This document shows, piece after piece, positions 24,182-51,595 of a stretch of DNA of 51,595 nt (position 1 is its first letter; each line of letters starts with the position of its first letter). A program made the position numbers and the translations under genes. The notes under the pieces are model-generated. The model had not been told where the DNA came from. It searched no databases and saw nothing but the letters and a program-made list of their open reading frames with translations. The DNA comes from an uncultured Thiotrichaceae bacterium. GTDB lineage: Bacteria; Pseudomonadota; Gammaproteobacteria; Thiotrichales; Thiotrichaceae. Where the stretch lies: assembly GCA_902727985.1 (NCBI GenBank), contig CACVAY010000146.1, forward strand, positions 1-51,595, in the 5' to 3' direction.

Positions 24182-24535
24182 GGTCTGTTCCCAGCTAGTA
24201 AAATATTCTGCGGATATTACCTGAAATTTCTTGTGTGTTCCATTTTCGATATGATTGCTTCTTTGTCCTGACTTGTTTAGAGGAGATTGATAGTTTGGAA
24301 ATGCAGTTTCATGATCCTGATATGCCTGTTCAGCTCTCTCTATTCGATGATCTCTATTGAGATGAGAAAGTTTTCACCAAAAAACATGCTTTTTTGAATC
24401 CATTTTAAGAGATACGGCGTAAAGGGATTAAGAATATCGACAAAGTCAAAAGTTATGGCGTGTCTTTGTCGACCTTGCTGTAAGTTTCACTTGCAACTTT
24501 TTACATTGAAAGACCCCGTTTATAAGGATGGAATA
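24182..24535. other. Intergenic region upstream of the EGKCG protein genes
   Basis: About 350 nt without a supported gene. A short frame at 24301-24360 ([19 protein letters not shown]) with AGAGGAG upstream may be a gene remnant, but I do not recognise it. A perfect 9-bp inverted repeat, TCGACAAAG/CTTTGTCGA at 24437-24472, lies about 64 nt before the first EGKCG gene and could be a regulatory hairpin or operator. Confidence 0.4.
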
Positions 24536-24757
24536 ATGATCACAAGAAAAAATTTATTAGCAGTCGCTGTTAGTACATCTTTAGCAGCAACAATGGTTGC
24601 GTGTTCTGGAACCAGTGAGGTAGCGAAAGATGGTGCATCTGCTAAAACTGAAGCTTCTGCAAAAGCCATGGAAGGCAAGTGTGGCGAGGGTAAGTGCGGT
24701 GGTGATAAAGCTAAGAAAGAAGGCAAGTGTGGCGAAGGTAAATGTGGTTCTAAATAA
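24536..24757 (+). CDS. HvfA-like EGKCG-repeat exported protein 1 (putative RiPP metallophore precursor)
   Basis: A 73-residue protein starts with a signal sequence (MITRKNLLAVAVSTSLAATM) that ends in a VACSG lipobox-like site. A low-complexity Ala/Lys/Glu linker and a C-terminal region with four EGKCG-type motifs follow (MEGKCGEGKCGGDK, then KEGKCGEGKCGSK). This is the pattern of HvfA-family peptides. In known cases the Cys of EGKCG are converted to oxazolone/thioamide by an MNIO (DUF692) enzyme, HvfB, with HvfC, and the product binds copper. No HvfB/HvfC gene is in this window. I chose ATG 24536 (RBS AAGGA) over the longer in-frame start at 24455, which would place 27 unrelated residues before the signal. 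Confidence 0.78.
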   Translation: MITRKNLLAVAVSTSLAATMVACSGTSEVAKDGASAKTEASAKAMEGKCGEGKCGGDKAKKEGKCGEGKCGSK

Positions 24758-26272: not shown

Positions 26273-26554
26273 AGTGAGTATATGAAATATGAATAATTAA
26301 ATTGCAATATTAGAAAATTTGTATATTCTATTACACCACATTTTCAGAGGGGGGAAATACTAATACCTCCTTTGGGGTAGAGATAAATTAGGGTGACCCC
26401 CCATGGGTGGGATTCTCTTGTTGAGGTACTAGGCATAGAATCTCGTACATCATGAAATTATCCGTTGTGGATGGTTTTTGAATGATTTATAACTCATTGC
26501 AATTAGTTATTTTCGCCCATTGGGGCGCTTACCGTTTTATTTGAGGAGACAGGT
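26273..26554. promoter_or_regulatory. Divergent control region between the dioxygenase gene and dsrA
   Basis: 282 nt with several inverted repeats. TACCTCC-TT-TGGGGTA (26364-26379) has the 7-2-7 layout of NarL/NarP sites, each half matching TACYYMT at 6 of 7 positions. TACTAAT abuts it at 26358. GGGT-G-ACCC lies at 26391-26399 and CCCATGGG, followed by TGGG, at 26400-26407. The dsrA RBS is GAGGAGACAGGT, just before the ATG at 26555. No promoter was assigned with confidence. Confidence 0.5.
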
Positions 26555-27823
26555 ATGGCTGATATGAAAAAATATCCAACTCCCATGTTGGATGTTCTGG
26601 AGAGTGGCCCTTGGCCGAGCTTCATCACTGGTTTTAAAAAACTGCGTGATGAACATCCGGATGAAAGAATTAACAACGTGGTTAATGGCCTTATGGGTCA
26701 GTTGGAGCATTCATACGAGACTCGTATGGGTTACTGGAAAGGTGGAACAATCTCTGTATTCGGTTACGGCGGCGGTATCATTCCACGTTTCTCTGAAGTA
26801 GGTGACTCATTCCCTGAGTCTAGAGAATTCCATACACTTCGTGTACAGCCAACGCCTGGCAACTACTACGACACAGGTATGATGCGTAAGCTAGCTGATA
26901 GTTGGGAGAAATGGGGCTCAGGTCTTCAGACTTTCCACGGTCAGACAGGTAACATCATGTTCATCGGTGCTGATAGTGCAAGCTACCAACATTTCTTCGA
27001 TGAAATTAATGAATATGGTTGGGACTTAGGTGGTGCGGGTCCATGTGTTCGTACGGCTATGTCATGTGTAGGTGCTGCACGTTGTGAACAGTCTTGTGCA
27101 AATGAGCATGGTATTCAACGTCACCTAGTCAATAACTTCACTGATGACGTGCATCGTCCTGCGCTTCCTTATAAGTTCAAGTTCAAGGTGTCTGGTTGTC
27201 CTAACGACTGTCAGAATGCTATTGAACGTGCTGACTTTGCTGTTATCGGTACTTGGAGAGATCACAAGAACATCGATCAGGATGCATGGAAAACATACGT
27301 TGAAGAAAAGGGTGTTGAGCATGTAATGGATAACGTTATTTCACGTTGCCATTCAAAGTCTCTTTCGCTTGGCAAAGATAACTCTTTGATTGCTGATGAA
27401 TCTAACTGTGTTCGTTCAATGCACTGCATGAATGTTGTTCCTAAGGCAATAAGCCCAGGTGATGACAAGGGTGTAACTATCCTGTGTGGTGGTAAACGTA
27501 CGCTGAAGATCGGTGACTTGATGGGTACCGTGCTTGTTCCATTCATGAAGCTTGAAACGGAAGAAGATTACGAGACTATCGTTGAACTAGCTGAAGAAAT
27601 CATTGATTTCTGGGCTGAGAACGGTCTTGAGCACGAGCGTACTGGTGAGATGATTGAGCGTATTGGCCTGGTTAACTTCTTAGAAGGTATCGGTGTAGAT
27701 CCTGATCCAAACATGATTGCTCAGCCACGTAACGTATCTTACGTCCGTACTGACGGTTGGGATGAGGCCGCTGAAGAATGGTTCAGCCGTAAGCGTGAAG
27801 AAAAAGCAGCAGCTGCTGGTTAA
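26555..27823 (+). CDS. dsrA: Reverse dissimilatory sulfite reductase subunit alpha DsrA
   Basis: DsrA pairs with DsrB in the cytoplasmic siroheme enzyme that oxidises DsrC-bound sulfane sulfur to sulfite in sulfur oxidisers. The 422-residue protein has the siroheme-[4Fe-4S] ligands CVGAARC (C-x5-C) and GCPNDC (C-x3-C) at about residues 172-215. A ferredoxin insert has DESNCVRSMHCMNVVP (about 285-300). Length and the order of the downstream genes match the Allochromatium-type oxidative enzyme. Oxidative operation is supported by dsrEFH and dsrL in the cluster. A strong RBS (GAGGAG) precedes the ATG, and a hairpin in the 91-nt gap separates it from dsrB. Confidence 0.98.
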   Translation: MADMKKYPTPMLDVLESGPWPSFITGFKKLRDEHPDERINNVVNGLMGQLEHSYETRMGYWKGGTISVFGYGGGIIPRFSEVGDSFPESREFHTLRVQPTPGNYYDTGMMRKLADSWEKWGSGLQTFHGQTGNIMFIGADSASYQHFFDEINEYGWDLGGAGPCVRTAMSCVGAARCEQSCANEHGIQRHLVNNFTDDVHRPALPYKFKFKVSGCPNDCQNAIERADFAVIGTWRDHKNIDQDAWKTYVEEKGVEHVMDNVISRCHSKSLSLGKDNSLIADESNCVRSMHCMNVVPKAISPGDDKGVTILCGGKRTLKIGDLMGTVLVPFMKLETEEDYETIVELAEEIIDFWAENGLEHERTGEMIERIGLVNFLEGIGVDPDPNMIAQPRNVSYVRTDGWDEAAEEWFSRKREEKAAAAG

Positions 27824-37642: not shown

Positions 37643-39076
37643 ATGTCGCTACCCCGCATATATATATCAGCTGCCCACAAGTCATCAGGTAAGACGACCT
37701 TATCCATTGGGCTATGTGCCGCTCTGACCGCAAAGGGTCTCAATATTCAGCCATTTAAAAAAGGGCCAGATTACATTGATCCGTTATGGCTTGGAGCTGC
37801 ATCTGGTAATCAATGTTACAACCTTGATTTTAACACTCAAGGGAATGATGAAATACTGTCAATGTTTGGTGAGAAGGGATCATCAAGTAACATTATCGTT
37901 ACAGAAGGTAATTTAGGTCTATATGATGGAACTGACGTACTTGGCTCTAATAGTAATGCCGCAATGGCTAAATTAACCAAGAGCCCCGTTATCTTGGTTA
38001 TTGATGCCCAGGGTGTTTCACGAGGTGTTGCTCCATTATTAGTGGGCTATCAACAGTTTGACCAAGAGGTGAATATAGCAGGTGTCATTTTTAATAAGGT
38101 TCGTGGTGATCGACATGCTAAGAAGTTGCGCGATGTAGTAGAGTATTACACCGATATCCCTATTATAGGTTCAGTTCAACAGCACAATGACCTCATGCTT
38201 GTAGAGCGCCATTTGGGGTTGATGCCTTATAATGAGACGGCTAAGGCAATGAATAAAATTACACATATTAGAGATCAAATTGTTGATCAGGTTGATATTG
38301 AAGCCGTTACCCGTATTGCCAATGTTAATCAATCGGGGGATTTAATTATTCCTGATAAAAAAATCGTAAAAGTATCCGTTGAAAATGTAGAACAAGGGCC
38401 ATTGAAAATAGGTATTTGTCGTGATGAGGCTTTCGGGTTTTATTATCCTGATGATCTGGAGTCTTTTGAAAGAGAAGGATGTGAATTAGTTGAAATTGAT
38501 TGTTTGAATGATCAGGAATTACCCGAAATAGATGGTTTATTCATCGGCGGGGGGTTTCCAGAAACGAAGCTCGCTGAGTTATCTGAAAACTATCTATTAA
38601 GACAGCAAATTCATGATGCCATAGAGCAGGGTCTGCCGACTTATGCAGAGTGTGGTGGTTTGATGTATTTAGCGAATCATATCAGTTGGATGGGCGATAA
38701 AGCTGAGATGGTTGGAGTTATCCCTGGGGATGCGGTGCTATATAAAAGGCCACAGGGTAGGGGTTATATTGAAGTGAGTGAAACAAAAGATATGCTGTGG
38801 AGTCGTAAACCTAAAAAATCAGAAACCATTCATGCGCATGAATTTCATTACTCGAAACTGGAAAACCTCACAAAAGATTTAACGGAAAAAGGTCGTTTTG
38901 CCTATTCAGTACAGCGTGGCACAGGTATTGATGGGGAAAATGATGGATGGGTATATAAAAATCTCCTAGCCTCTTATGCACATATGAGAAACACAGAAGA
39001 AAACCAGTGGGTTTCACGTTTTATTGATTTTGTGCGAAAGCAAATACATACTGACAGGGATTCAGTTAATTCATAG
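37643..39076 (+). CDS. dsrN: DsrN, siroheme amide synthase (cobyrinate a,c-diamide synthase family)
   Basis: DsrN performs glutamine-dependent amidation of siroheme for DsrAB. The 477-residue protein has an ATP-binding N-terminal domain of the CbiA type (RIYISAAHKSSGKTTLSIGL and FKKGPDYIDPLWL). Its C-terminal class I glutamine amidotransferase domain has the nucleophile in TYAECGGLMYL and a C-terminal His in HAHEFHYSKLE. It lies after the dsrP terminator, so it needs its own promoter or read-through. No convincing Shine-Dalgarno sequence precedes the ATG. Confidence 0.95.
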   Translation: MSLPRIYISAAHKSSGKTTLSIGLCAALTAKGLNIQPFKKGPDYIDPLWLGAASGNQCYNLDFNTQGNDEILSMFGEKGSSSNIIVTEGNLGLYDGTDVLGSNSNAAMAKLTKSPVILVIDAQGVSRGVAPLLVGYQQFDQEVNIAGVIFNKVRGDRHAKKLRDVVEYYTDIPIIGSVQQHNDLMLVERHLGLMPYNETAKAMNKITHIRDQIVDQVDIEAVTRIANVNQSGDLIIPDKKIVKVSVENVEQGPLKIGICRDEAFGFYYPDDLESFEREGCELVEIDCLNDQELPEIDGLFIGGGFPETKLAELSENYLLRQQIHDAIEQGLPTYAECGGLMYLANHISWMGDKAEMVGVIPGDAVLYKRPQGRGYIEVSETKDMLWSRKPKKSETIHAHEFHYSKLENLTKDLTEKGRFAYSVQRGTGIDGENDGWVYKNLLASYAHMRNTEENQWVSRFIDFVRKQIHTDRDSVNS

Positions 39077-39134: not shown

Positions 39135-39446
39135 ATGATGACGGTAACTCCTGCAGCCGTAGAACAAATTAGCGCCGCTCGTAAACAATCCAACTGTGAA
39201 AGTATGCCACTTCGAATTGCAGTACAGGCAAAAACTGATGGCAGTCTGCATTATGTAATGGGTTTTGATGACGACAAAAAGCCTGGTGATTTTGTGCTTG
39301 AAGCAGAGGGCGTGAATCTCGTTGTTGACCAGGCTAGCCAGCCATTAGCTAACGGAATGTCCTTAGATTTTGTCGAACTTGAAGGTACGATGGAATTCAT
39401 CTTTATCAATCCTAACGATCCTAAACAAACCCCAGTTAATGGCTAA
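39135..39446 (+). CDS. dsrR: DsrR, A-type iron-sulfur carrier-like protein without cluster cysteines
   Basis: A 103-residue IscA-like fold (TPAAVEQISAARKQSNCES, FVLEAEGVNLVVDQASQPLA). The C-terminal CxC of true A-type carriers is replaced by FIFINPN, and only one Cys (position 20 or 21) remains. This matches A. vinosum DsrR, which lacks the cluster ligands and affects dsr expression after transcription. The start is one of two adjacent ATG codons. The next gene starts 2 nt after the stop. Confidence 0.94.
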   Translation: MMTVTPAAVEQISAARKQSNCESMPLRIAVQAKTDGSLHYVMGFDDDKKPGDFVLEAEGVNLVVDQASQPLANGMSLDFVELEGTMEFIFINPNDPKQTPVNG

Positions 39447-39448
39447 AA

Positions 39449-41092
39449 ATGCCAGCTGATACCCAACCCATCGTTGATTTCACAAAGCGCACTCGTACGG
39501 CTTCTGATGATTCAATACAGAGCTTAAAGGGAGCGATTGAGTTCCCGTGGCAGGCTCGGCTGGGTTTGGCTGTACTCTTTGTAATATTTTTTACCATTGG
39601 TGCCACCTATTACTGGATAGAAAGTGCAGAGCCTGATTTAGCATGGTTGCCTTGGGCGATGACTAGCTTGTGGTTGGTGGCTGGAGCGGGAGTGATGATT
39701 TTACTTTATTGGCTCTGGCGTGAATTTAATCAATTTGGTACAGACTTGGCTGTTTGGGTGGATTGTTTAAGAGCGGGTAATTTATCTGAACGGATGCCTG
39801 TGCGACGATCGGCTTGCCCATCTTTTCAATTACGTAATAGATTGAATAATATTGCAGGCGACTACCAAACCATTGCCAGCAAATTGGAAGGGCGTTTATC
39901 CCGCCAAGCAAAGTACATTCAGCAAAAGAAACATTACCTCAATGTTTTATATGATGTGGCATCCTGTATTAACCGCTCACAAAACTTGGAGGACTTACTC
40001 AATCAGTTCTTATTGACGCTAAAAGATGTGGTAAATGCAGAAGCTGCGACGGTACGTCTGCTGGATAGAGAGGGGCAGATGCGTTTGGTTGCCAGCATTG
40101 GTCTATCCGACGAGGTGATCGAAAAAGAAAAAATCATGCCTGCGCCAGAATGTTTATGTGGCAAAGCCGCAGAATCAGGTGAAATTATTACTCGTGAAGG
40201 CATTCAACGTTGTGGGTTACGCATTGGACAGAAGTTTTTCGATAATAACAATATCGACTTGATTGCGATACCGCTTCAATACCGTGACAAGACCTTAGGT
40301 GTCTATAATCTATTCGTCGATAAAAAGCAGCATCCCACAATTGATGAAGAGCACGAGCTGTTGATGAGTATTGGTCAGCACCTAGGGATGGCCATCGAAA
40401 AGGCGAGTGTTGATGAAGAAGCCCATCTGCTCTCCATCATGGAAGAACGTACCCGTATGGCGCACGAACTTCATGACTCATTGGCTCAAACCCTAGCCAG
40501 TCTCCGTTTCAAAGTACGGCTATTAGATGATTCGCTTCGTTCAGAGAACGATGAGCATATATGGGGTGAGTTGGAAGGCTTGGAAAATAGCATTGATGAT
40601 GCGAATAAAGAATTAAGAAGTCTTATAACTCATTTCCGCGCGCCCATTGATGGCAAGGGGATTGTCCGTGCGGTGGAACGTCTAGCTGAAAGATTCCGCA
40701 TGGAAACGTCGAAGGAGGTCTTTTTCTATCAAAACTGGAATTTCCCGAAAACCCCTCGCGAGATTGAAATAGAAGCCATACGCATCGTGCAAGAGGCGCT
40801 AGTCAATATTCGTAAACATAGCGAAGCTGAAACGGTACGTATTTTGATGTACAGCTCAGAAGCGGGTCAATGCAGTATCCTTGTTGAAGATGATGGAATC
40901 GGTTTGCCTGAACAACGTGTAGAGCCGAATCAAGAAACAGGTGAGCATATTGGGCTAACGGTGATGGAAGAGCGAGCTGCCAGAATTAATGGTGAGATAC
41001 TGTTTGAAAGTGAAGACGGAGAAGGTACACTGGTACAGCTTTGTTTCACCGTATCCCCCCCTGAAGTGAATGACATTATCGGAGATCCTTAA
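39449..41092 (+). CDS. NarX-like sensor histidine kinase with cysteine-bearing GAF domain
   Basis: A 547-residue membrane sensor kinase. Two hydrophobic helices (about residues 37-55 and 68-90) enclose a periplasmic loop of only about 12 residues. A HAMP-like linker with a coiled coil and a GAF domain (about 165-315) follow, then HisKA_3 with phospho-acceptor H342 (MAHELHDSLAQTLASL) and HATPase_c (EALVNIRKH, DDGIGL, GLTVMEERAARINGEI). The GAF domain carries C235 and C237 (ECLCGKAAESGE) and C255 (GIQRCG), like the Cys cluster in the NarX central module. The minimal periplasmic loop argues for cytoplasmic sensing. It begins 2 nt after dsrR, so it is in the same transcript. Sensing of sulfane sulfur or redox state through the GAF cysteines is my inference. 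Confidence 0.9.
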   Translation: MPADTQPIVDFTKRTRTASDDSIQSLKGAIEFPWQARLGLAVLFVIFFTIGATYYWIESAEPDLAWLPWAMTSLWLVAGAGVMILLYWLWREFNQFGTDLAVWVDCLRAGNLSERMPVRRSACPSFQLRNRLNNIAGDYQTIASKLEGRLSRQAKYIQQKKHYLNVLYDVASCINRSQNLEDLLNQFLLTLKDVVNAEAATVRLLDREGQMRLVASIGLSDEVIEKEKIMPAPECLCGKAAESGEIITREGIQRCGLRIGQKFFDNNNIDLIAIPLQYRDKTLGVYNLFVDKKQHPTIDEEHELLMSIGQHLGMAIEKASVDEEAHLLSIMEERTRMAHELHDSLAQTLASLRFKVRLLDDSLRSENDEHIWGELEGLENSIDDANKELRSLITHFRAPIDGKGIVRAVERLAERFRMETSKEVFFYQNWNFPKTPREIEIEAIRIVQEALVNIRKHSEAETVRILMYSSEAGQCSILVEDDGIGLPEQRVEPNQETGEHIGLTVMEERAARINGEILFESEDGEGTLVQLCFTVSPPEVNDIIGDP

Positions 41093-41100
41093 ACTGCCTA

Positions 41101-41766
41101 ATGAATACTCGAATCCTTCTCATAGATGACCATACCCTTTTTCGTGCAGGCCTGGAAGATCTTCTTAAACGTCGGGGTATTGATGTTGTCGCCGCTGTTG
41201 GGAGTGGAGAAGAAGGTCTGCCATTGGTAAAGGAACTTAAACCCGATATTGTGTTGTTAGACATGCGTATGCCAGAGATGGATGGTCATGCAGTGCTTAA
41301 ACAACTGAAGAAAAGCTGCCCAGATCAACGCGTAGCTATGCTAACAACCAGTGCTGCGGAAAAAGATCTCGTAGAGTCTTTACGTAATGGAGCGCAAGGT
41401 TACCTGTTGAAAGACATGGAGCCTGATGATTTAGTCGTTGCCTTACGCGATATTAATTCCGGTAAACAGCCCGTGGTGGCATCTGAGTTATCGAATGTAT
41501 TGGCCAGAGCCGTGCAGGGCGATACTTTAAACGAAAAAGAGGATGATCCATTCTCAGAACTCACGCCTCGTGAATACGAGATTTTGGGTTTACTGGCGGA
41601 AGGGCAAACCAACAAAGTCATTGCCAGGAATCTGGGTATTTCTGATGGTACGGTTAAACTTCACGTAAAAGCAATTTTACGTAAGCTTAATATTAATTCG
41701 CGTATCACAGCCGCGGTTATGGCTGTTGAACATGGCTTAAAAGCCTCTTCAAGATTTAATAAATAA
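41101..41766 (+). CDS. NarL/FixJ-family response regulator
   Basis: A 221-residue regulator with a receiver domain (phospho-acceptor D54 in DIVLLDMRMPEMDG, acidic pocket D9-D10, and the K in YLLKDMEPDD). Its LuxR-type DNA-binding domain is ELTPREYEILGLLAEGQTNK, VIARNLGISDGTVKLHVKAI. It begins 8 nt after the kinase stop and is its obvious partner. A NarL-like 7-2-7 heptamer pair upstream of dsrA makes the dsr operon itself a candidate target. Confidence 0.93.
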   Translation: MNTRILLIDDHTLFRAGLEDLLKRRGIDVVAAVGSGEEGLPLVKELKPDIVLLDMRMPEMDGHAVLKQLKKSCPDQRVAMLTTSAAEKDLVESLRNGAQGYLLKDMEPDDLVVALRDINSGKQPVVASELSNVLARAVQGDTLNEKEDDPFSELTPREYEILGLLAEGQTNKVIARNLGISDGTVKLHVKAILRKLNINSRITAAVMAVEHGLKASSRFNK

Positions 41767-41774
41767 ACAGCCTT

Positions 41775-42239
41775 ATGTCTACAAACTTTAAAAGCCTTGT
41801 TGCTGAGGCGCTAGAAGAAATCGACGAAATTTTCCCGTGGGACTTGGAAGAGCAATTGGATACAGAAAATCCTCCCGTATTGGTGGATATCCGAGAAGCG
41901 GATGAGTTTGACCAGCTGCATATCAAAGGCTCCATCTTTGCACCACGTGGAATTTTGGAGACCTGCTGTGACTGGGGCTACTCAGAAACGATTCCCGAAT
42001 TAGCGAAAGCCAGGGATAAAGAGATTGTGGTGATTTGTCGTTCTGGCAACCGAAGTGCATTGGCAGCTGTGACCATGAAACAATTGGGCTTTAGTAATGT
42101 TATTTCTCTACAAACGGGTGTCCGTGGCTGGAATGATGCCGATTTGCCACTGCTAAATAGTCAACAAAGAGAAGTTGATCCTGATTGGGCAGAAGGATTT
42201 CTCAGTCCAGAGATTACTGAAGAGCAATTCGGTAATTAA
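41775..42239 (+). CDS. Single-domain rhodanese-like sulfurtransferase
   Basis: A 154-residue rhodanese domain with the active-site C88 in VVICRSGNRSALAA, the N-terminal VDIREADEFDQLHIKGSIFA and a C-terminal GVRGWNDADLPLL. A double Cys (LETCCDWGY) lies before it. The 6-residue loop CRSGNR fits sulfur, not arsenate or phosphate, substrates. It follows the response regulator by 8 nt, making a kinase-regulator-rhodanese unit at the end of the dsr cluster. It could feed persulfide to DsrEFH or to the sensor. Confidence 0.92.
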   Translation: MSTNFKSLVAEALEEIDEIFPWDLEEQLDTENPPVLVDIREADEFDQLHIKGSIFAPRGILETCCDWGYSETIPELAKARDKEIVVICRSGNRSALAAVTMKQLGFSNVISLQTGVRGWNDADLPLLNSQQREVDPDWAEGFLSPEITEEQFGN

Positions 42240-42598: not shown

Positions 42599-43732
42599 AT
42601 GTACCGCTTTATTATTTTACTGTTAACCCTGTTGGCTTTAGCCGCCATTGGGTATTTTTGTCTCCAAAAAATACAAGCACCTGCCATTCAGGCCGATATC
42701 CAGTCTCGAGCTGCTGATGCACTTCGATCAAATGGTATTGACTGGGCTGATGTTTCCGTCTCAGGTCGAGATATTGTCTTAACAGGCGTTGCGCCTTCTG
42801 AAGACATGCGGGAAGCGGCCACGCGATTTGCTCGTGTCGATGGTTATAATTTTGTTGAAAATAATCTCAGCATAGCAGGAGAGTTATCTGGAGATCCGGT
42901 TGTAGAGCCTTCTGGGGAGACTCTTAGTCATTCACAAGCTGTTAAAAATGCTTTTTCCCTCAAAATTAGTAAACAAAAAGATGGCATGGTGATTCTTGAT
43001 GGTGTGTTAGATAAAACGTCAAAAGCGGATCTACTTGCGATTGCCAAAGAGCAATATGGTGAGAATAAGATAAGCGACAATATCGTGGTGATTAAGGGTG
43101 CTACGCCATCTGCTTTTATAAGTACGGTTGCTAATACACTAGAAAAGGTAAACGGACTCACTGAGGCAGAAGCACTGGTTACCCCTAATAATGTGTATTT
43201 GAGCGGACAAAGTTCATCCAAGATAATGCTTCAGCAGATTCAACATCAACTTCAAGCCATCATTCCAAAGTCGATGAAAAGCGAATTTAATCTGGAGCTT
43301 ACGGATACTGTCGAAAGTGATACTAATAGCCCTGATGCTGATGCGCAAGTCGCTGCATTAAGCGCTAAAGAATGTCAAAGACAGTTTAATCAGGCACTTA
43401 AGAAGCGAATTCAATTTAATAGCTCCAGCTCCGTGCTTAAGAAAAGCAGTTATAAGGTGTTAGATAAGGTGGCTGAAATTTCCAAGCAATGCGAAACCAA
43501 GCAAATTGTTGTTCATGGACATACCGATGCTACGGGCAGGAATAACGCGAATCGTCGTTTAAGCAAGAAGCGGGCCCAAGCTGTTGTGAATTATCTGGCG
43601 AAGAAAGATATCAAAGAGTCTCGCTTTAAAGCAGTAGGACACGGTTCCAGCAAACCTGTTGCAAGCAATAAGACAGAACGCGGCAGAGCAAGAAATCGTC
43701 GCATTGAATTATCGGTTGAGGTAAAAAAATAA
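42599..43732 (+). CDS. Membrane-anchored BON/OmpA-family protein
   Basis: A 377-residue protein with an N-terminal membrane anchor (MYRFIILLLTLLALAAIGYF). Two BON-like lipid or surface-binding domains follow (DIQSRAADALRSNGIDWADV and a second near residues 120-170), then a C-terminal OmpA peptidoglycan-binding domain (IVVHGHTDATGRNNANRRLS, KKRAQAVVNYL, GRARNRRIELSVEVKK). This architecture resembles ArfA-type OmpATb proteins more than porin OmpA. It overlaps the next gene (TAATG), so the two products probably work together at the envelope. Confidence 0.87.
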   Translation: MYRFIILLLTLLALAAIGYFCLQKIQAPAIQADIQSRAADALRSNGIDWADVSVSGRDIVLTGVAPSEDMREAATRFARVDGYNFVENNLSIAGELSGDPVVEPSGETLSHSQAVKNAFSLKISKQKDGMVILDGVLDKTSKADLLAIAKEQYGENKISDNIVVIKGATPSAFISTVANTLEKVNGLTEAEALVTPNNVYLSGQSSSKIMLQQIQHQLQAIIPKSMKSEFNLELTDTVESDTNSPDADAQVAALSAKECQRQFNQALKKRIQFNSSSSVLKKSSYKVLDKVAEISKQCETKQIVVHGHTDATGRNNANRRLSKKRAQAVVNYLAKKDIKESRFKAVGHGSSKPVASNKTERGRARNRRIELSVEVKK

Positions 43733-44952
43733 TGAGTTATCTGCTAACACAGCTATGGATTTGTTTAGGGTTGGCTGCATTAATCGCAGGAATTGCAGGC
43801 TGGTTACTTCGTGGAAGTGGCAGAAACAAATTCAAAAAAATTGAAGATGAAATGAATGCCAAATTAGTGAGTGTTGAAAAGGAACGTGATCACTATATGG
43901 ATGAATTACAAAATTTAGGTGAGATTGAAGCAGAGACAAAGGCACTCACGTCAAAACATATCGAAGAAAAGCAAACGCTGGAAAAGCAATTGCAGGGTAT
44001 GGAAAAGGCAGCGTCAATGGCGTCTCAGAAGTTACATCTACAGGAACAGGAGTTAACGAAAAAAGCGCAACAACTGAATGATGCGAATGCCAGTCTTTCA
44101 ATGAAAATTGATGAGGAACAACAGGTATTCACGCAACGACTAGCAGAAGTTGAGGCAGGCGCAGAACATTCTGATCACCAGATCAAAGAATATGAAGTGC
44201 GTATTGATGCGCTGGAAGCAGAGTTATCACAGACAGCGTCGCAACTTGATGAAGCAAGAATTCAGTTATCCGAGATACATGCAGCCTCAAGAGTAGCACT
44301 TGGAACTTCGGCCGTTAGTTATATAAATACACCTGCAATTTCAACGGCCGCTGACAAAACTGTGCTTTCTGATAGTGAAGGGGCACATGATGACGCCAAT
44401 ATAAAAGGGCTGTTAGGGATCGGGGGGCTGGCTGGTGTAGCAGGGCTAGCTAAATCAACGCTCGATAAAGCTGTTGAGGGTGTTAGTCATGCCAAAGAAG
44501 AGATGATGTACAAGTCGAGTCCTGGTGATACGATCTATGCGCTTAATGAAATCAAATCAATTAGCCGTGAAGATCGTTCCCGTTTAAATGAGATGGGGGT
44601 TGAAACTACAGAAGAACTTCTTAATAAGTGTTCGACGAAGGATGAAATTTCTCTGTTCTCCAAAACCTTGGGTAAAGAGGCGTGGGTGGTGCGTTCATGG
44701 GTGAGTGTAGCTGACTTATTGCGCCTAAACGGTGTTGATGGCATGAATGCCGAGTTGTTAGAATTATCGGGCATAGCTTCCACACAGAGTTTAAAGCTTG
44801 CGAAAGCTGAAAAGCTTCAGGAGAGCATGAGCGTGATTCATCGTCATGTTGGTAAGAATGATAGTATGCCAGAGCTATCTGAGATTCAGACATGGATAGC
44901 GCAAGCATCAAACATCTCCCCTATGGTCGATAACAGTATCGAAAAGATCTAA
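43732..44952 (+). CDS. Membrane-anchored coiled-coil protein with C-terminal DUF4332/HhH-type domain
   Basis: A 406-residue protein. One N-terminal helix (LWICLGLAALIAGIAGWLLR) is followed by a long coiled coil (about residues 35-190, rich in E/K/Q). A Gly-rich stretch (LLGIGGLAGVAGLAKS) leads to a C-terminal DUF4332-like helix-hairpin-helix domain (EIKSISREDRSRLNEMGVET, TEELLNKCSTKDEISLFSKT). DUF4332 domains resemble DNA- or nucleotide-binding HhH folds, but the function is unknown. The TAATG overlap with the OmpA/BON gene points to a joint structural role spanning inner membrane and cell wall. Confidence 0.8.
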   Translation: MSYLLTQLWICLGLAALIAGIAGWLLRGSGRNKFKKIEDEMNAKLVSVEKERDHYMDELQNLGEIEAETKALTSKHIEEKQTLEKQLQGMEKAASMASQKLHLQEQELTKKAQQLNDANASLSMKIDEEQQVFTQRLAEVEAGAEHSDHQIKEYEVRIDALEAELSQTASQLDEARIQLSEIHAASRVALGTSAVSYINTPAISTAADKTVLSDSEGAHDDANIKGLLGIGGLAGVAGLAKSTLDKAVEGVSHAKEEMMYKSSPGDTIYALNEIKSISREDRSRLNEMGVETTEELLNKCSTKDEISLFSKTLGKEAWVVRSWVSVADLLRLNGVDGMNAELLELSGIASTQSLKLAKAEKLQESMSVIHRHVGKNDSMPELSEIQTWIAQASNISPMVDNSIEKI

Positions 44953-49100: not shown

Positions 49101-51194
49101 GTGCAAACTGCAACGGAAACCATCAAGCATACGACTTGTTATGAATGCGATGCGAATTGTGCCTTTGAGGTGACGTTGAATGCTGAAGGGCATGCGACGA
49201 AAGTAGAGGGTATGCCGAGTTGTCCGCGCGGTCCGATGCAGCTTGAGCGTCAGTATCATAAAGATCGTTTGCTATATCCACTTAAAAGAGTGGGGCCAAA
49301 AGGCTCAGGGGAGTTTGAGCGCATTTCTTGGGAGGAGGCGCTGAATACCATTACTGCTGAGCTAGAAAAAAGCAAAGCGGAACATGGTGCGCCTGCGGTA
49401 GGTTTCTTCGCGGGGTATACAAAAGAAGCACGCCCTCAGCTACAGCGCCTTGCACATGCCTTTGGTAGTCCGAATTATCTCACAGAATCTGGATGCTGTT
49501 TTTCGGCAACCATGGTCGCAGAGCGTCTGACATATGGTTATAAATTAAAAACCACATCTACGGTAGAATCGCCATTAACACGTTGTGTATTGGTATGGTC
49601 TACCAATGCGGTGGGTTCGATTCCGCCTTTCGATGACCATCATCTAAATAAGCGTAAGAAAGGTCGGCGTATGATTGTGGTTGATCCACGTCGTACTGAA
49701 ACGGCTGAACTGGCAGATATTCATTTGCAGATTCGTCCAGGCACAGATGGCGCTTTGGCTCTAGGTTTCCATCATCTGATTTTCAAGAACAACTGGCAGG
49801 CTCAAGAATTTTTGGATGAGTGGGCGAGTGGTTTGGAAGCTTTTCGTGACTATATAAAAGACTTTACACCAGAGCGTGTGGCAGAGATCTGCGGTATTGA
49901 TGAAGCAGATTTACTGGCTGCCGTGGAGATGTTTGCAACAACCTTGCCATCACAAATTGCAATGTCCCCAACGGCGACGGTGCAACACAGCAATGGTTTT
50001 CAGAACCATCGTGCGATGATTCTGTTATCAGCTGTGACGGGGAATATTGATAAGGAGGGCGGTAATCGCTTTTTCAATAATAAGGTCTTACCGAAGCCTA
50101 TTGAAATGTTCGATGTCTGTCTCAATGAACTACCACCACGCATTGGTGATGAAGTTTTTCCAATCTGGACAAAATACTGGCCTGCTGCACAAAGCATGTT
50201 GATGCCTGATTGTATTCTGGAAGGTAAGCCACAAAAGCTAAAATCTCTGTTGGCGATGGGCATTAACACCGCGATGTGGGCAAATTCCAAACGTATGGAA
50301 GAGGCGCTAGGGGCTTTGGATTTCTTTGCGGTTTCTGACTTTTTCCATAATCCTGCAACATTGCAGGCGGATATTGTCCTACCCGCTGCAACGAATTTAG
50401 AACGCTCGGCGCTAATTGCCTATCCTGGTTGTGCGTATCAAGGAGAGATCAAATACCGCCATCCGGTATTATCAACACGTGGTGAAGCTAAAGCGGATGG
50501 AGAGATCTTTTTGGAATTAGCAGTGAAGCTGGGTATGGGGGAGCAGTTTTGGGAAGGTGATGTTGATGCGTCGTGGGCTGAAATGGCAGAAGGTTTGCCC
50601 GAAGGGATGTGGAAAGAAGTTTACGAAAACCCCGAAGGTGTAACGGTTTACAGTGATGTTATTGAAGAACTCGTCGATAAAGGCTTTTTAGATGCAGACC
50701 GACAATGGCGTATTAATGGTTTTAAAACCGCCACAGGTAAGATTGAATTCGACTCAGTGGAATTACGAGAGCAAGGCTATGATGGTTTGCCGGTTTATCG
50801 TGAACCAGCGGAAAGCCCAGTATCAACGCCTGAATTAATGGATGAATATCCCTTGGTTTTAACCTCGGGGGGGCGTCAAAAGTATTTTACCCATTCGCAA
50901 CAGCACAATGTTGATCCGATGCTCAAAATTGACCCTTATCCACGTGTGCAATTACATCCGGCTGATGCCGAAGCGCGAGGTTTACAGCAAGGCGATGTGG
51001 TAGAAATTCGTTCACCAAGGGGGGCTGTTATTTTCAGGGCTGATATCACTGATCGCATGAAGCAGGGCGTCGCGCATTGTTTTCATGGTTGGAATGATGC
51101 CAATATCAATGAGCTAACGGATGACCAACATCTTGATCCCATCAGTGGCTTCCCACCCTTTAAATCACTATTGTGTGAAGTCACAAAGCAATAG
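49101..51194 (+). CDS. Molybdopterin-dependent oxidoreductase, substrate unknown
   Basis: A 697-residue Mo-bisMGD enzyme of the DMSO-reductase family. An N-terminal [4Fe-4S] site (TTCYECDANCAFEV plus SCPRGP) is followed by the Mo domain (VVDPRRTETAELADI, RPGTDGALALGF) and a C-terminal cofactor-binding domain (PLVLTSGGRQKYFTHSQQHN, VQLHPADAEARGLQQGDVVE). The probable Mo ligand lies in ESGCCFSATM, where a Cys pair occupies the usual Cys/Ser/SeCys position. No Tat signal is seen, so it is cytoplasmic. No partner electron-transfer subunit is adjacent. The start is GTG: any later ATG would lose the cluster cysteines. The substrate cannot be told from the sequence. Confidence 0.9.
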   Translation: MQTATETIKHTTCYECDANCAFEVTLNAEGHATKVEGMPSCPRGPMQLERQYHKDRLLYPLKRVGPKGSGEFERISWEEALNTITAELEKSKAEHGAPAVGFFAGYTKEARPQLQRLAHAFGSPNYLTESGCCFSATMVAERLTYGYKLKTTSTVESPLTRCVLVWSTNAVGSIPPFDDHHLNKRKKGRRMIVVDPRRTETAELADIHLQIRPGTDGALALGFHHLIFKNNWQAQEFLDEWASGLEAFRDYIKDFTPERVAEICGIDEADLLAAVEMFATTLPSQIAMSPTATVQHSNGFQNHRAMILLSAVTGNIDKEGGNRFFNNKVLPKPIEMFDVCLNELPPRIGDEVFPIWTKYWPAAQSMLMPDCILEGKPQKLKSLLAMGINTAMWANSKRMEEALGALDFFAVSDFFHNPATLQADIVLPAATNLERSALIAYPGCAYQGEIKYRHPVLSTRGEAKADGEIFLELAVKLGMGEQFWEGDVDASWAEMAEGLPEGMWKEVYENPEGVTVYSDVIEELVDKGFLDADRQWRINGFKTATGKIEFDSVELREQGYDGLPVYREPAESPVSTPELMDEYPLVLTSGGRQKYFTHSQQHNVDPMLKIDPYPRVQLHPADAEARGLQQGDVVEIRSPRGAVIFRADITDRMKQGVAHCFHGWNDANINELTDDQHLDPISGFPPFKSLLCEVTKQ

Positions 51195-51218
51195 TTTTTG
51201 TTGTCATCTGGAGTTCTT

Positions 51219-51595
51219 ATGCCACAGAAAATTGAGCGCTATCTCGCTGTCCGTGAACACTCAGAAGCCCTGTGTTCTCCATTGGAGATAGAGGACTATG
51301 TGGTGCAGCCTGTGGCAGAAGTCAGCCCGCCTAAATGGCATCTGGCGCATACCACATGGTTTTTTGAAGAGCTTTTATTACGCCCGAATTTACCAAACTA
51401 TCAGCGCTTTAATGAGCAATTTCCTTTACTGTTTAACTCCTACTATAAGGCCGCAGGTGATCACTGGATACAAGGGGAAAGAGGGCAGTTATCACGCCCG
51501 ACAGTGAAAGAAGTCTATGCCTATCGTCAATATGTCGATGAGCATATGCAGGTGTTGCTAGCGCGTGATGATTTAAGTGCTGAAGCAGAAGGCTT
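51219..51595 (+). CDS. egtB: Ergothioneine biosynthesis protein EgtB, 3' end outside window
   Basis: The first 125 residues of an EgtB-like protein are present, open to the window edge. The N-terminal DinB_2 domain has the iron-binding HxxH pattern in PPKWHLAHTTWFFEELLL. It continues with NYQRFNEQFPLLFNSYYKAA and RGQLSRPTVKEVYAYRQYVD, as in EgtB. The formylglycine-generating-type sulfatase-modifying domain would lie downstream. EgtB joins hercynine and a thiol donor (gamma-Glu-Cys or Cys) to the sulfoxide in ergothioneine synthesis. The RBS is weak (TGGAGTTCTTATG), 25 nt after the Mo enzyme stop. Confidence 0.88.
   Translation, partial: MPQKIERYLAVREHSEALCSPLEIEDYVVQPVAEVSPPKWHLAHTTWFFEELLLRPNLPNYQRFNEQFPLLFNSYYKAAGDHWIQGERGQLSRPTVKEVYAYRQYVDEHMQVLLARDDLSAEAEG

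Follow-up and report, generated by a model that had tools for sequence, protein, structure and literature searches.

A NarX/NarL-derived two-component system at the end of the dsr cluster is a probable dedicated regulator of reverse-Dsr sulfur oxidation in Gammaproteobacteria

Purple sulfur bacteria, Thiothrix-like filaments, animal symbionts and marine chemoautotrophs oxidize sulfur by means of the reverse-Dsr (rDsr) pathway. The dsr cluster of an uncultured Thiotrichaceae bacterium, found in a stretch of 51,595 nucleotides (contig CACVAY010000146.1 of assembly GCA_902727985.1, positions 1 to 51,595, hereafter called the window), has genes resembling those of the nitrate-responsive NarX/NarL system at its end. 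A preliminary description of this DNA had placed a kinase, a regulator and a rhodanese directly after dsrR, and the open reading frames (ORFs) confirm these positions. The gene for the IscA-like DsrR (39135..39446, + strand, as for the other genes of the window; ORF and profile matches) is followed by those for a NarX-like sensor kinase of 547 residues (39449..41092), a NarL-like response regulator of 221 residues (41101..41766) and a single-domain rhodanese of 154 residues (41775..42239), with intergenic gaps of 2, 8 and 8 nt in the ORF listing. Because the kinase co-occurs with dsrN, and because a palindrome is conserved before dsrA but found in none of the seven measured dsr genomes without the kinase, we consider that this pair is probably dedicated to the control of the rDsr operon in gammaproteobacterial sulfur oxidizers.

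We surveyed 369 gammaproteobacterial genomes for dsrL (E<=1e-120, 123 genomes), for the kinase (E<=1e-50, 121 genomes) and for the CobB/CfbB-like gene dsrN (37643..39076 in the window; profile matches), which served as the anchor (E<=1e-60, 123 genomes). Kinase and dsrN were both present in 114 genomes and both absent from 239, with 9 genomes harbouring only dsrN and 7 only the kinase (Fisher p 1.2e-74). The kinase is thus found in 114/123 dsrN genomes versus 7/246 dsrN-less ones (odds ratio 432), so that the co-occurrence with dsr in relatives to which the preliminary description had looked is borne out. In 81 of the 114 genomes, the kinase gene follows dsrN on the same strand at a distance of 239-2263 nt, and in 7 it is elsewhere on the contig. 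A smaller set gave a kinase match at E<=1e-10 in 71 of 95 genomes, source genome included. Among 60 fetched kinase regions, dsrN and/or dsrR were present upstream on the same strand in 53, for many of which the fetched stretch does not span the remaining dsr genes; in two loci (L084, L086; G and L numbers are our handles for genomes and loci), dsrN/dsrR are about 1.6 kb from the kinase. Three regions begin inside the kinase and are uninformative, and four (L082, L088, L089, L091) show neither dsrN nor dsrR. For comparisons with named organisms, we used the best 80 kinase loci of a species-level collection, among which the order dsrN/dsrR-kinase-regulator, often with the rhodanese, was found in Thiothrix, Leucothrix, Cocleimonas, Thiohalomonas, Sulfuriflexus and many further lineages. 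This set and the 60 regions share genomes, and the cysteine, rhodanese, helix and site-rarity counts given below are not fully independent. The same gene order at the dsr end in different families exceeds chance, and by its conserved linkage and co-occurrence the kinase pair is an accessory of the dsr cluster.

The new element is a NarL-type palindrome, TAYCYC-N4-GRGRTA, upstream of dsrA. The latter is the first gene of the dsr cluster and the proposed target (26555..27823; NCBIfam dsrA, 582.7 bits for a cut-off of 392.85); DsrB, DsrE/TusD and DsrK of the window also score above their NCBIfam cut-offs, and DsrM and DsrP are best NCBIfam matches only, with scores under the cut-off. A search of the window that started from the NarL consensus gave a single perfect match to TACYYM-N4-KRRGTA, TACCTCCTTTGGGGTA (26364..26379, no strand assigned). 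This 7-2-7 palindrome, located some 191 nt ahead of the dsrA start, is the operator that we propose for the response regulator. When 3 mismatches are allowed, the strict NarL pattern occurs at a near-chance frequency in the window (50 found, mean 40). The consensus TAYCYC-N4-GRGRTA was drawn from the dsrA upstreams of 30 genomes in plus-strand loci, 26 of them in the family and four outside (G060, G068, G074, G078), and sites were counted within 500 nt upstream of dsrA. Outside the family, 64/99 kinase-bearing genomes harbour a perfect site and 19 more a one-mismatch site (83/99 in total); without the four consensus genomes, the counts are 61 and 18, i.e. 79/95. Within the family, 15 perfect and 9 one-mismatch sites make 24/26. 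A site within one mismatch was found in 0/7 dsr genomes devoid of the kinase (Fisher p 1e-5 versus the outside-family kinase genomes), and a Markov null of 3390 random sequences gave 0.0003 for perfect sites and 0.0106 for one mismatch. The kinase-less upstreams have GC contents of 0.26-0.39, but composition alone does not explain their lack of sites, because AT-rich upstreams of kinase-bearing genomes (GC<=0.42) still harbour the palindrome in 30/36 cases. We grouped G345 as kinase-bearing, as its truncated kinase and regulator beside dsrNR were missed at the E 1e-50 cut-off; counting it as kinase-less gives 1/8 within one mismatch. Where a genome has two dsrA copies (7 genomes), we took the better site; the main copy alone gives 82/99. 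Two dsrA-like matches per genome were observed in G004, G114, G205, G214, G252, G276, G391 and G407.

Perfect sites are rare elsewhere: the other fetched loci, 2.09 Mb in all, contain 4, including one in a dsrA promoter. In the source genome (3.54 Mb), there are 4 perfect TAYCYC-N4-GRGRTA sites (two within ORFs, one before dsrA and one intergenic); at one mismatch there is no excess (76 sites versus 74 for the reversed pattern). The conserved palindrome before dsrA suggests that the pair controls sulfur oxidation. The second intergenic site (G000:C148:28936-28951) is located approximately 170 nt before a Glycos_transf_3/TrpD2-like gene (L335:5124-6233), a possible further target of the regulator. 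Autoregulation was considered and discarded, as no perfect palindrome was found by the kinase genes in the fetched loci.

Several observations weigh against a dedicated dsr regulator. The kinase and dsrN are on different contigs in 26/114 genomes, and in four kinase-bearing genomes (G119, G203, G248, G294) neither dsrN nor dsrL was detected and no dsr gene is visible beside the kinase; of the other kinase-only genomes, G376 has dsrL, G192 has dsrEFHC adjoining the kinase, and the 3.2-kb contig of G151 does not allow its dsr neighbourhood to be judged. The blocks of Thiocapsa and Thiocystis are away from dsr, and in the best-80 set no dsr gene was found within the stretch seen around the kinase-regulator-rhodanese block of Thiocapsa roseopersicina, Thiocystis violacea, Sedimenticola and Thiosymbion. 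In 16/99 kinase-bearing genomes outside the family and 2/26 within it, dsrA is not preceded by a site within one mismatch. With seven genomes, the control set lacking the kinase is small; it is also AT-rich, and some of its members are related (three belong to one family). A further 17 dsr genomes had no usable dsrA upstream: G212 and G265 offer just 14 and 114 nt before the gene, and in 15 others dsrA is missing, truncated or outside the fetched sequence. Lastly, a control with narG, which exceeds its cut-off in 60/369 genomes (29 with the kinase, 31 without), still showed a weak association with the kinase (p 0.007, odds ratio 2.2).

A footprint does not tell which protein binds the palindrome, and the site is lacking in 18/125 kinase-bearing genomes, as would be expected if it belonged to another regulator and the kinase pair were merely linked or co-inherited. 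This is improbable given the absence of sites from the seven kinase-less dsr genomes, the NarL-type 7-2-7 architecture of the site and the fact that the closest other NarL-like regulators of the source genome are only 29-34% identical, with no paralogue closer than 34%. The regulator itself has the NarL/FixJ composition, with a Response_reg receiver (100 bits) and a GerE-type helix-turn-helix domain (72.4 bits) in Pfam, and it scores 217.4 for the NCBIfam NarL equivalog, below the cut-off of 250. The recognition-helix motif TVKLHVK was present in 130/135 survey regulators; of the five others, three are cut off, L089 has TVKIHVQ and L091 is a distant paralogue. The window regulator thus resembles Escherichia coli NarL in its near-identical recognition helix and 7-2-7 palindrome, but differs from it by TVKLHVK instead of TVKVHVK and by TAYCYC instead of the NarL consensus TACYYMT. 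TVKVHVK is also found in L344, L346 and L347 and TVKLHVK in L337, with no match in L343. A V-to-L change in the helix would be compatible with a site that has moved from TAC to mostly TAT.

Is the pair then an ordinary nitrate/nitrite-responsive NarXL system that lies next to dsr by coincidence? In line with this idea, the best NCBIfam matches of kinase and regulator are NarQ, NarX and NarL, a nitrite/nitrate-sensing role is described for the Allochromatium vinosum NarXL (PMC3368242, as far as its available text goes), and the weak narG association points the same way. Like the sensors of E. coli NarX/NarQ-NarL/NarP, the window kinase has a linker and a GAF-like module before the catalytic domains (GAF_2 178-317, HisKA_3 333-399, HATPase_c 441-533). 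Unlike NarX/NarQ, it has no periplasmic nitrate sensor, is linked to dsr rather than nar and has a CxC-x17-C cysteine spacing. Its hydrophobic segments (30-58 and 67-90) leave an intervening loop of approximately 8 residues, and a Pfam search of the kinase revealed no periplasmic sensor domain, in agreement with the preliminary description, which had noted an almost missing periplasmic domain. That domain is given as the defining trait of NarX/NarQ kinases in the accessible part of a review (PMC8199190). The equivalog scores are far under their cut-offs (NarQ, 170.6 of 553; NarX, 114.2 of 578), 92/121 kinase genomes have no narG over cut-off, and two genomes (G092, G093) have a second NarX adjoining narG. 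The kinase is present in 27/27 genomes with dsrN and narG, and also in 87/96 with dsrN but no narG. A profile search of the source genome yielded no NarG or NapA above cut-off; a 737-aa molybdenum reductase on its contig C33, under the NapA cut-off, could be assimilatory, so that the organism may still use nitrate. Because of its domain content, its scores, the lack of NarG/NapA over cut-off in the source genome and the weakness of the narG association, we regard a nitrate system as very unlikely. In an unrooted kinase tree, E. coli NarX/NarQ group with the narG-adjoining kinases (L343, L344, L089, L337) and with L346 and L347 (narG not searched for these two), and L338, L341 and L342 are placed among the dsr kinases.

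The same A. vinosum genome, as presented in the available text (PMC3368242), harbours a NarX/NarL pair (Alvin_1057/1058) in a dsr organism with no obvious nitrate reduction genes. The A. vinosum pair differs from that of the window by its location outside the dsr operon and its assignment to nitrite/nitrate sensing, but going by that description it is probably an orthologue and the same system. If true, a dsr-regulatory function would account for a NarXL pair in A. vinosum without nitrate reduction. Strain Hiromi 1, a dsr organism described as denitrifying with Nap, also has NarL/NarX (PMC4136832, available part); therefore, not every NarXL pair in dsr organisms need be of this kind.

We propose that a NarX/NarL-descended pair was recruited as dedicated regulator of the reverse-Dsr operon. 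The kinase, devoid of the periplasmic nitrate sensor, would be held in the membrane by its two helices, and its GAF domain would read a cytoplasmic cue, most likely a sulfur or redox species. Judging from the domains, the kinase would phosphorylate the NarL-like regulator, and footprinting and co-occurrence suggest that the latter may bind the TAYCCC-N4-GGGRTA palindrome upstream of dsrA and switch the operon. The control of sulfur oxidation put forward in the preliminary description thus gains support from dsr linkage in many lineages and from the conserved dsrA palindrome, but the identity of the cue that it named remains a guess.

The cue might be sulfane sulfur, handed as a persulfide by rhodanese C88 to the GAF cysteines so as to set kinase activity; this would add a signal to the proposed dsr control. 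The codons of C235-C237 (CLC) and C255 are at 40151..40159 and 40211..40213. Of 52 aligned kinases, 48 harbour the GAF loop; C235 and C255 are conserved in all 48 of these and C237 in 46, and all three are present together in 54/57 kinases of the best-80 set. At least one is missing in kinases of three dsr genomes (L340, L345 and L351 of G192, G376 and G159), which goes against a sulfur-sensing role, and the triad is missing in related kinases of genomes without detected dsr (L338, L341 and L342 of G119, G203 and G248), which goes in its favour. In the best-80 set, 18/18 kinases not visibly beside dsrN/dsrR, in whose genomes dsr was not searched, have the triad. The conservation of the cysteines, which the preliminary description had proposed to check, thus holds widely, but not among the closest relatives: 4/5 genus-mates (G001, G003, G004, G005) have lost the loop while retaining kinase and regulator. 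The dsrA palindrome is nevertheless perfect in G001 and G005, with two mismatches in G004. Likewise, among small dsr genomes, G345 has a 313-aa kinase core without GAF adjoining dsrNR, and G098 and G238 were matched in the catalytic part only, yet their palindromes before dsrA have 1, 0 and 0 mismatches, respectively. Nitrate-linked kinases beside narG have three Cys (L337) or the CxC pair (L089), and E. coli NarX has a Cys cluster with other spacing. We therefore rejected the triad as a dsr-only signature. Because of the loop loss in genus-mates, the GAF-less kinase of G345 and the CxC of L337/L089, the GAF cysteines look inherited from NarX.

The sulfane-sulfur hypothesis also concerns the rhodanese (PF00581, 63.6 bits for a cut-off of 22.2), whose catalytic Cys loop is present in the segment ICRSGNRS. 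Its C88 (codon 42036..42038) is Cys in 79/79 aligned sequences, the window's own included, and C65 in 74/79. Its gene also stays after the regulator where the block sits away from dsr (L150, L152, L153, L155), which favours the sulfane-sulfur hypothesis. However, it directly follows the regulator in only 35/52 and 41/70 loci with enough sequence (approximately 60%; L106, L113 and L146 are included in the 41). As a guess, it is an accessory supplying or removing the signal. Given the loop losses, the GAF-less kinases and this partial occurrence, conservation declines from regulator and operator to the GAF cysteines, and from these to the rhodanese. On balance, sulfane-sulfur sensing is doubtful. 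Slightly more so is its full version, with the GAF domain as a sensor of persulfide in the cytoplasm: the rhodanese would pass sulfane sulfur from DsrEFH/Tus to CxC-x17-C, the kinase thus loaded would activate dsrA via the TAYCCC-N4-GGGRTA operator, and lineages devoid of the loop or of the whole sensor would have become constitutive or re-wired. If it were true, the dsr pathway would read its own substrate.

Another choice of signal within the proposed dsr control is redox state or O2, with the GAF cysteines ligating an Fe-S cluster or forming disulfides, so that dsr would track electron-acceptor supply, not sulfur. We consider this possible, if tentative. In an AlphaFold model of the kinase (mean pLDDT 85.8; 80.7 for the GAF domain alone), the GAF domain matched gas-sensing DosS/DosT GAF domains by Foldseek, Fe-S-binding GAF/PAS kinases are cited in the available part of PMC8199190, and Cys clusters are also found in nitrate-linked kinases. 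However, there are three Cys and not four, and the Foldseek matches are to generic GAF domains of the PDB, including PtsP and free methionine-R-sulfoxide reductase as well as DosS/DosT, with the full kinase model matching generic kinases. For the GAF-like domains of NarX/NarQ, that review, in the part available, states that there is no evidence of intracellular signal sensing (PMC8199190), and the present system bears on the question of the role of NarX-type GAF modules.

Our prediction of a specific kinase-regulator pair and a specific operator in dsr organisms across the Gammaproteobacteria opens dsr control to direct testing. The window pair stands at the end of the dsr operon, like DsrR/DsrS of A. 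vinosum; unlike the pair, A. vinosum DsrR is neither a kinase nor a DNA-binding regulator, and DsrS is not known to be either. DsrR of A. vinosum is reported to participate in the regulation of sulfur oxidation (PMC11406059, available part). The nearest functional precedent, of another kind, is Bacillus licheniformis NreBC, described in the accessible text as controlling the sulfur oxidation genes sqr and pdo in response to sulfide (PMC9918477), i.e. two-component control of sulfur oxidation genes as proposed for the window pair. By contrast with the latter, NreBC has a PAS kinase and a Gram-positive host, serves SQR/PDO detoxification and works with the repressor YrkD, and its cluster, as described in that text, includes no dsr (PMC9918477). 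The PAS domain of NreBC-type sulfide sensors was absent from the window kinase in the Pfam search, with GAF instead. Among the open-licence papers listed, and to the extent that their text was available, we found no account of a two-component system that regulates dsr, in agreement with the initial statement that no dsr regulator of this type was known.

Other genes were observed near these blocks. In some lineages, the kinase gene is separated from dsrR by that of a dihydrolipoyl-dehydrogenase-like flavoprotein (L084:10185-11684, - strand; L116:8279-9724, + strand), with TIGR01350 as best match (338 and 391 bits, respectively, versus a cut-off of 408.8). In two Chromatiaceae loci (L150:7731-9596 and L155:7730-9559), an ABC exporter gene is found just 5' of the kinase, the best match of the L155 protein being MsbA-like. 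After the rhodanese gene, the window codes for OmpA/BON and DUF4332 proteins (42599-44952, +), both matched downstream in L032, L075 and L078, and further on for a molybdopterin oxidoreductase (49101-51191, +), after which an EgtB-like gene begins (51198-51593, +). Upstream of the dsr cluster, a short protein (24455-24757, +) matches the KCGExKCG repeat of HvfA-type metallophores, which are ribosomally synthesized and post-translationally modified peptides (RiPPs).

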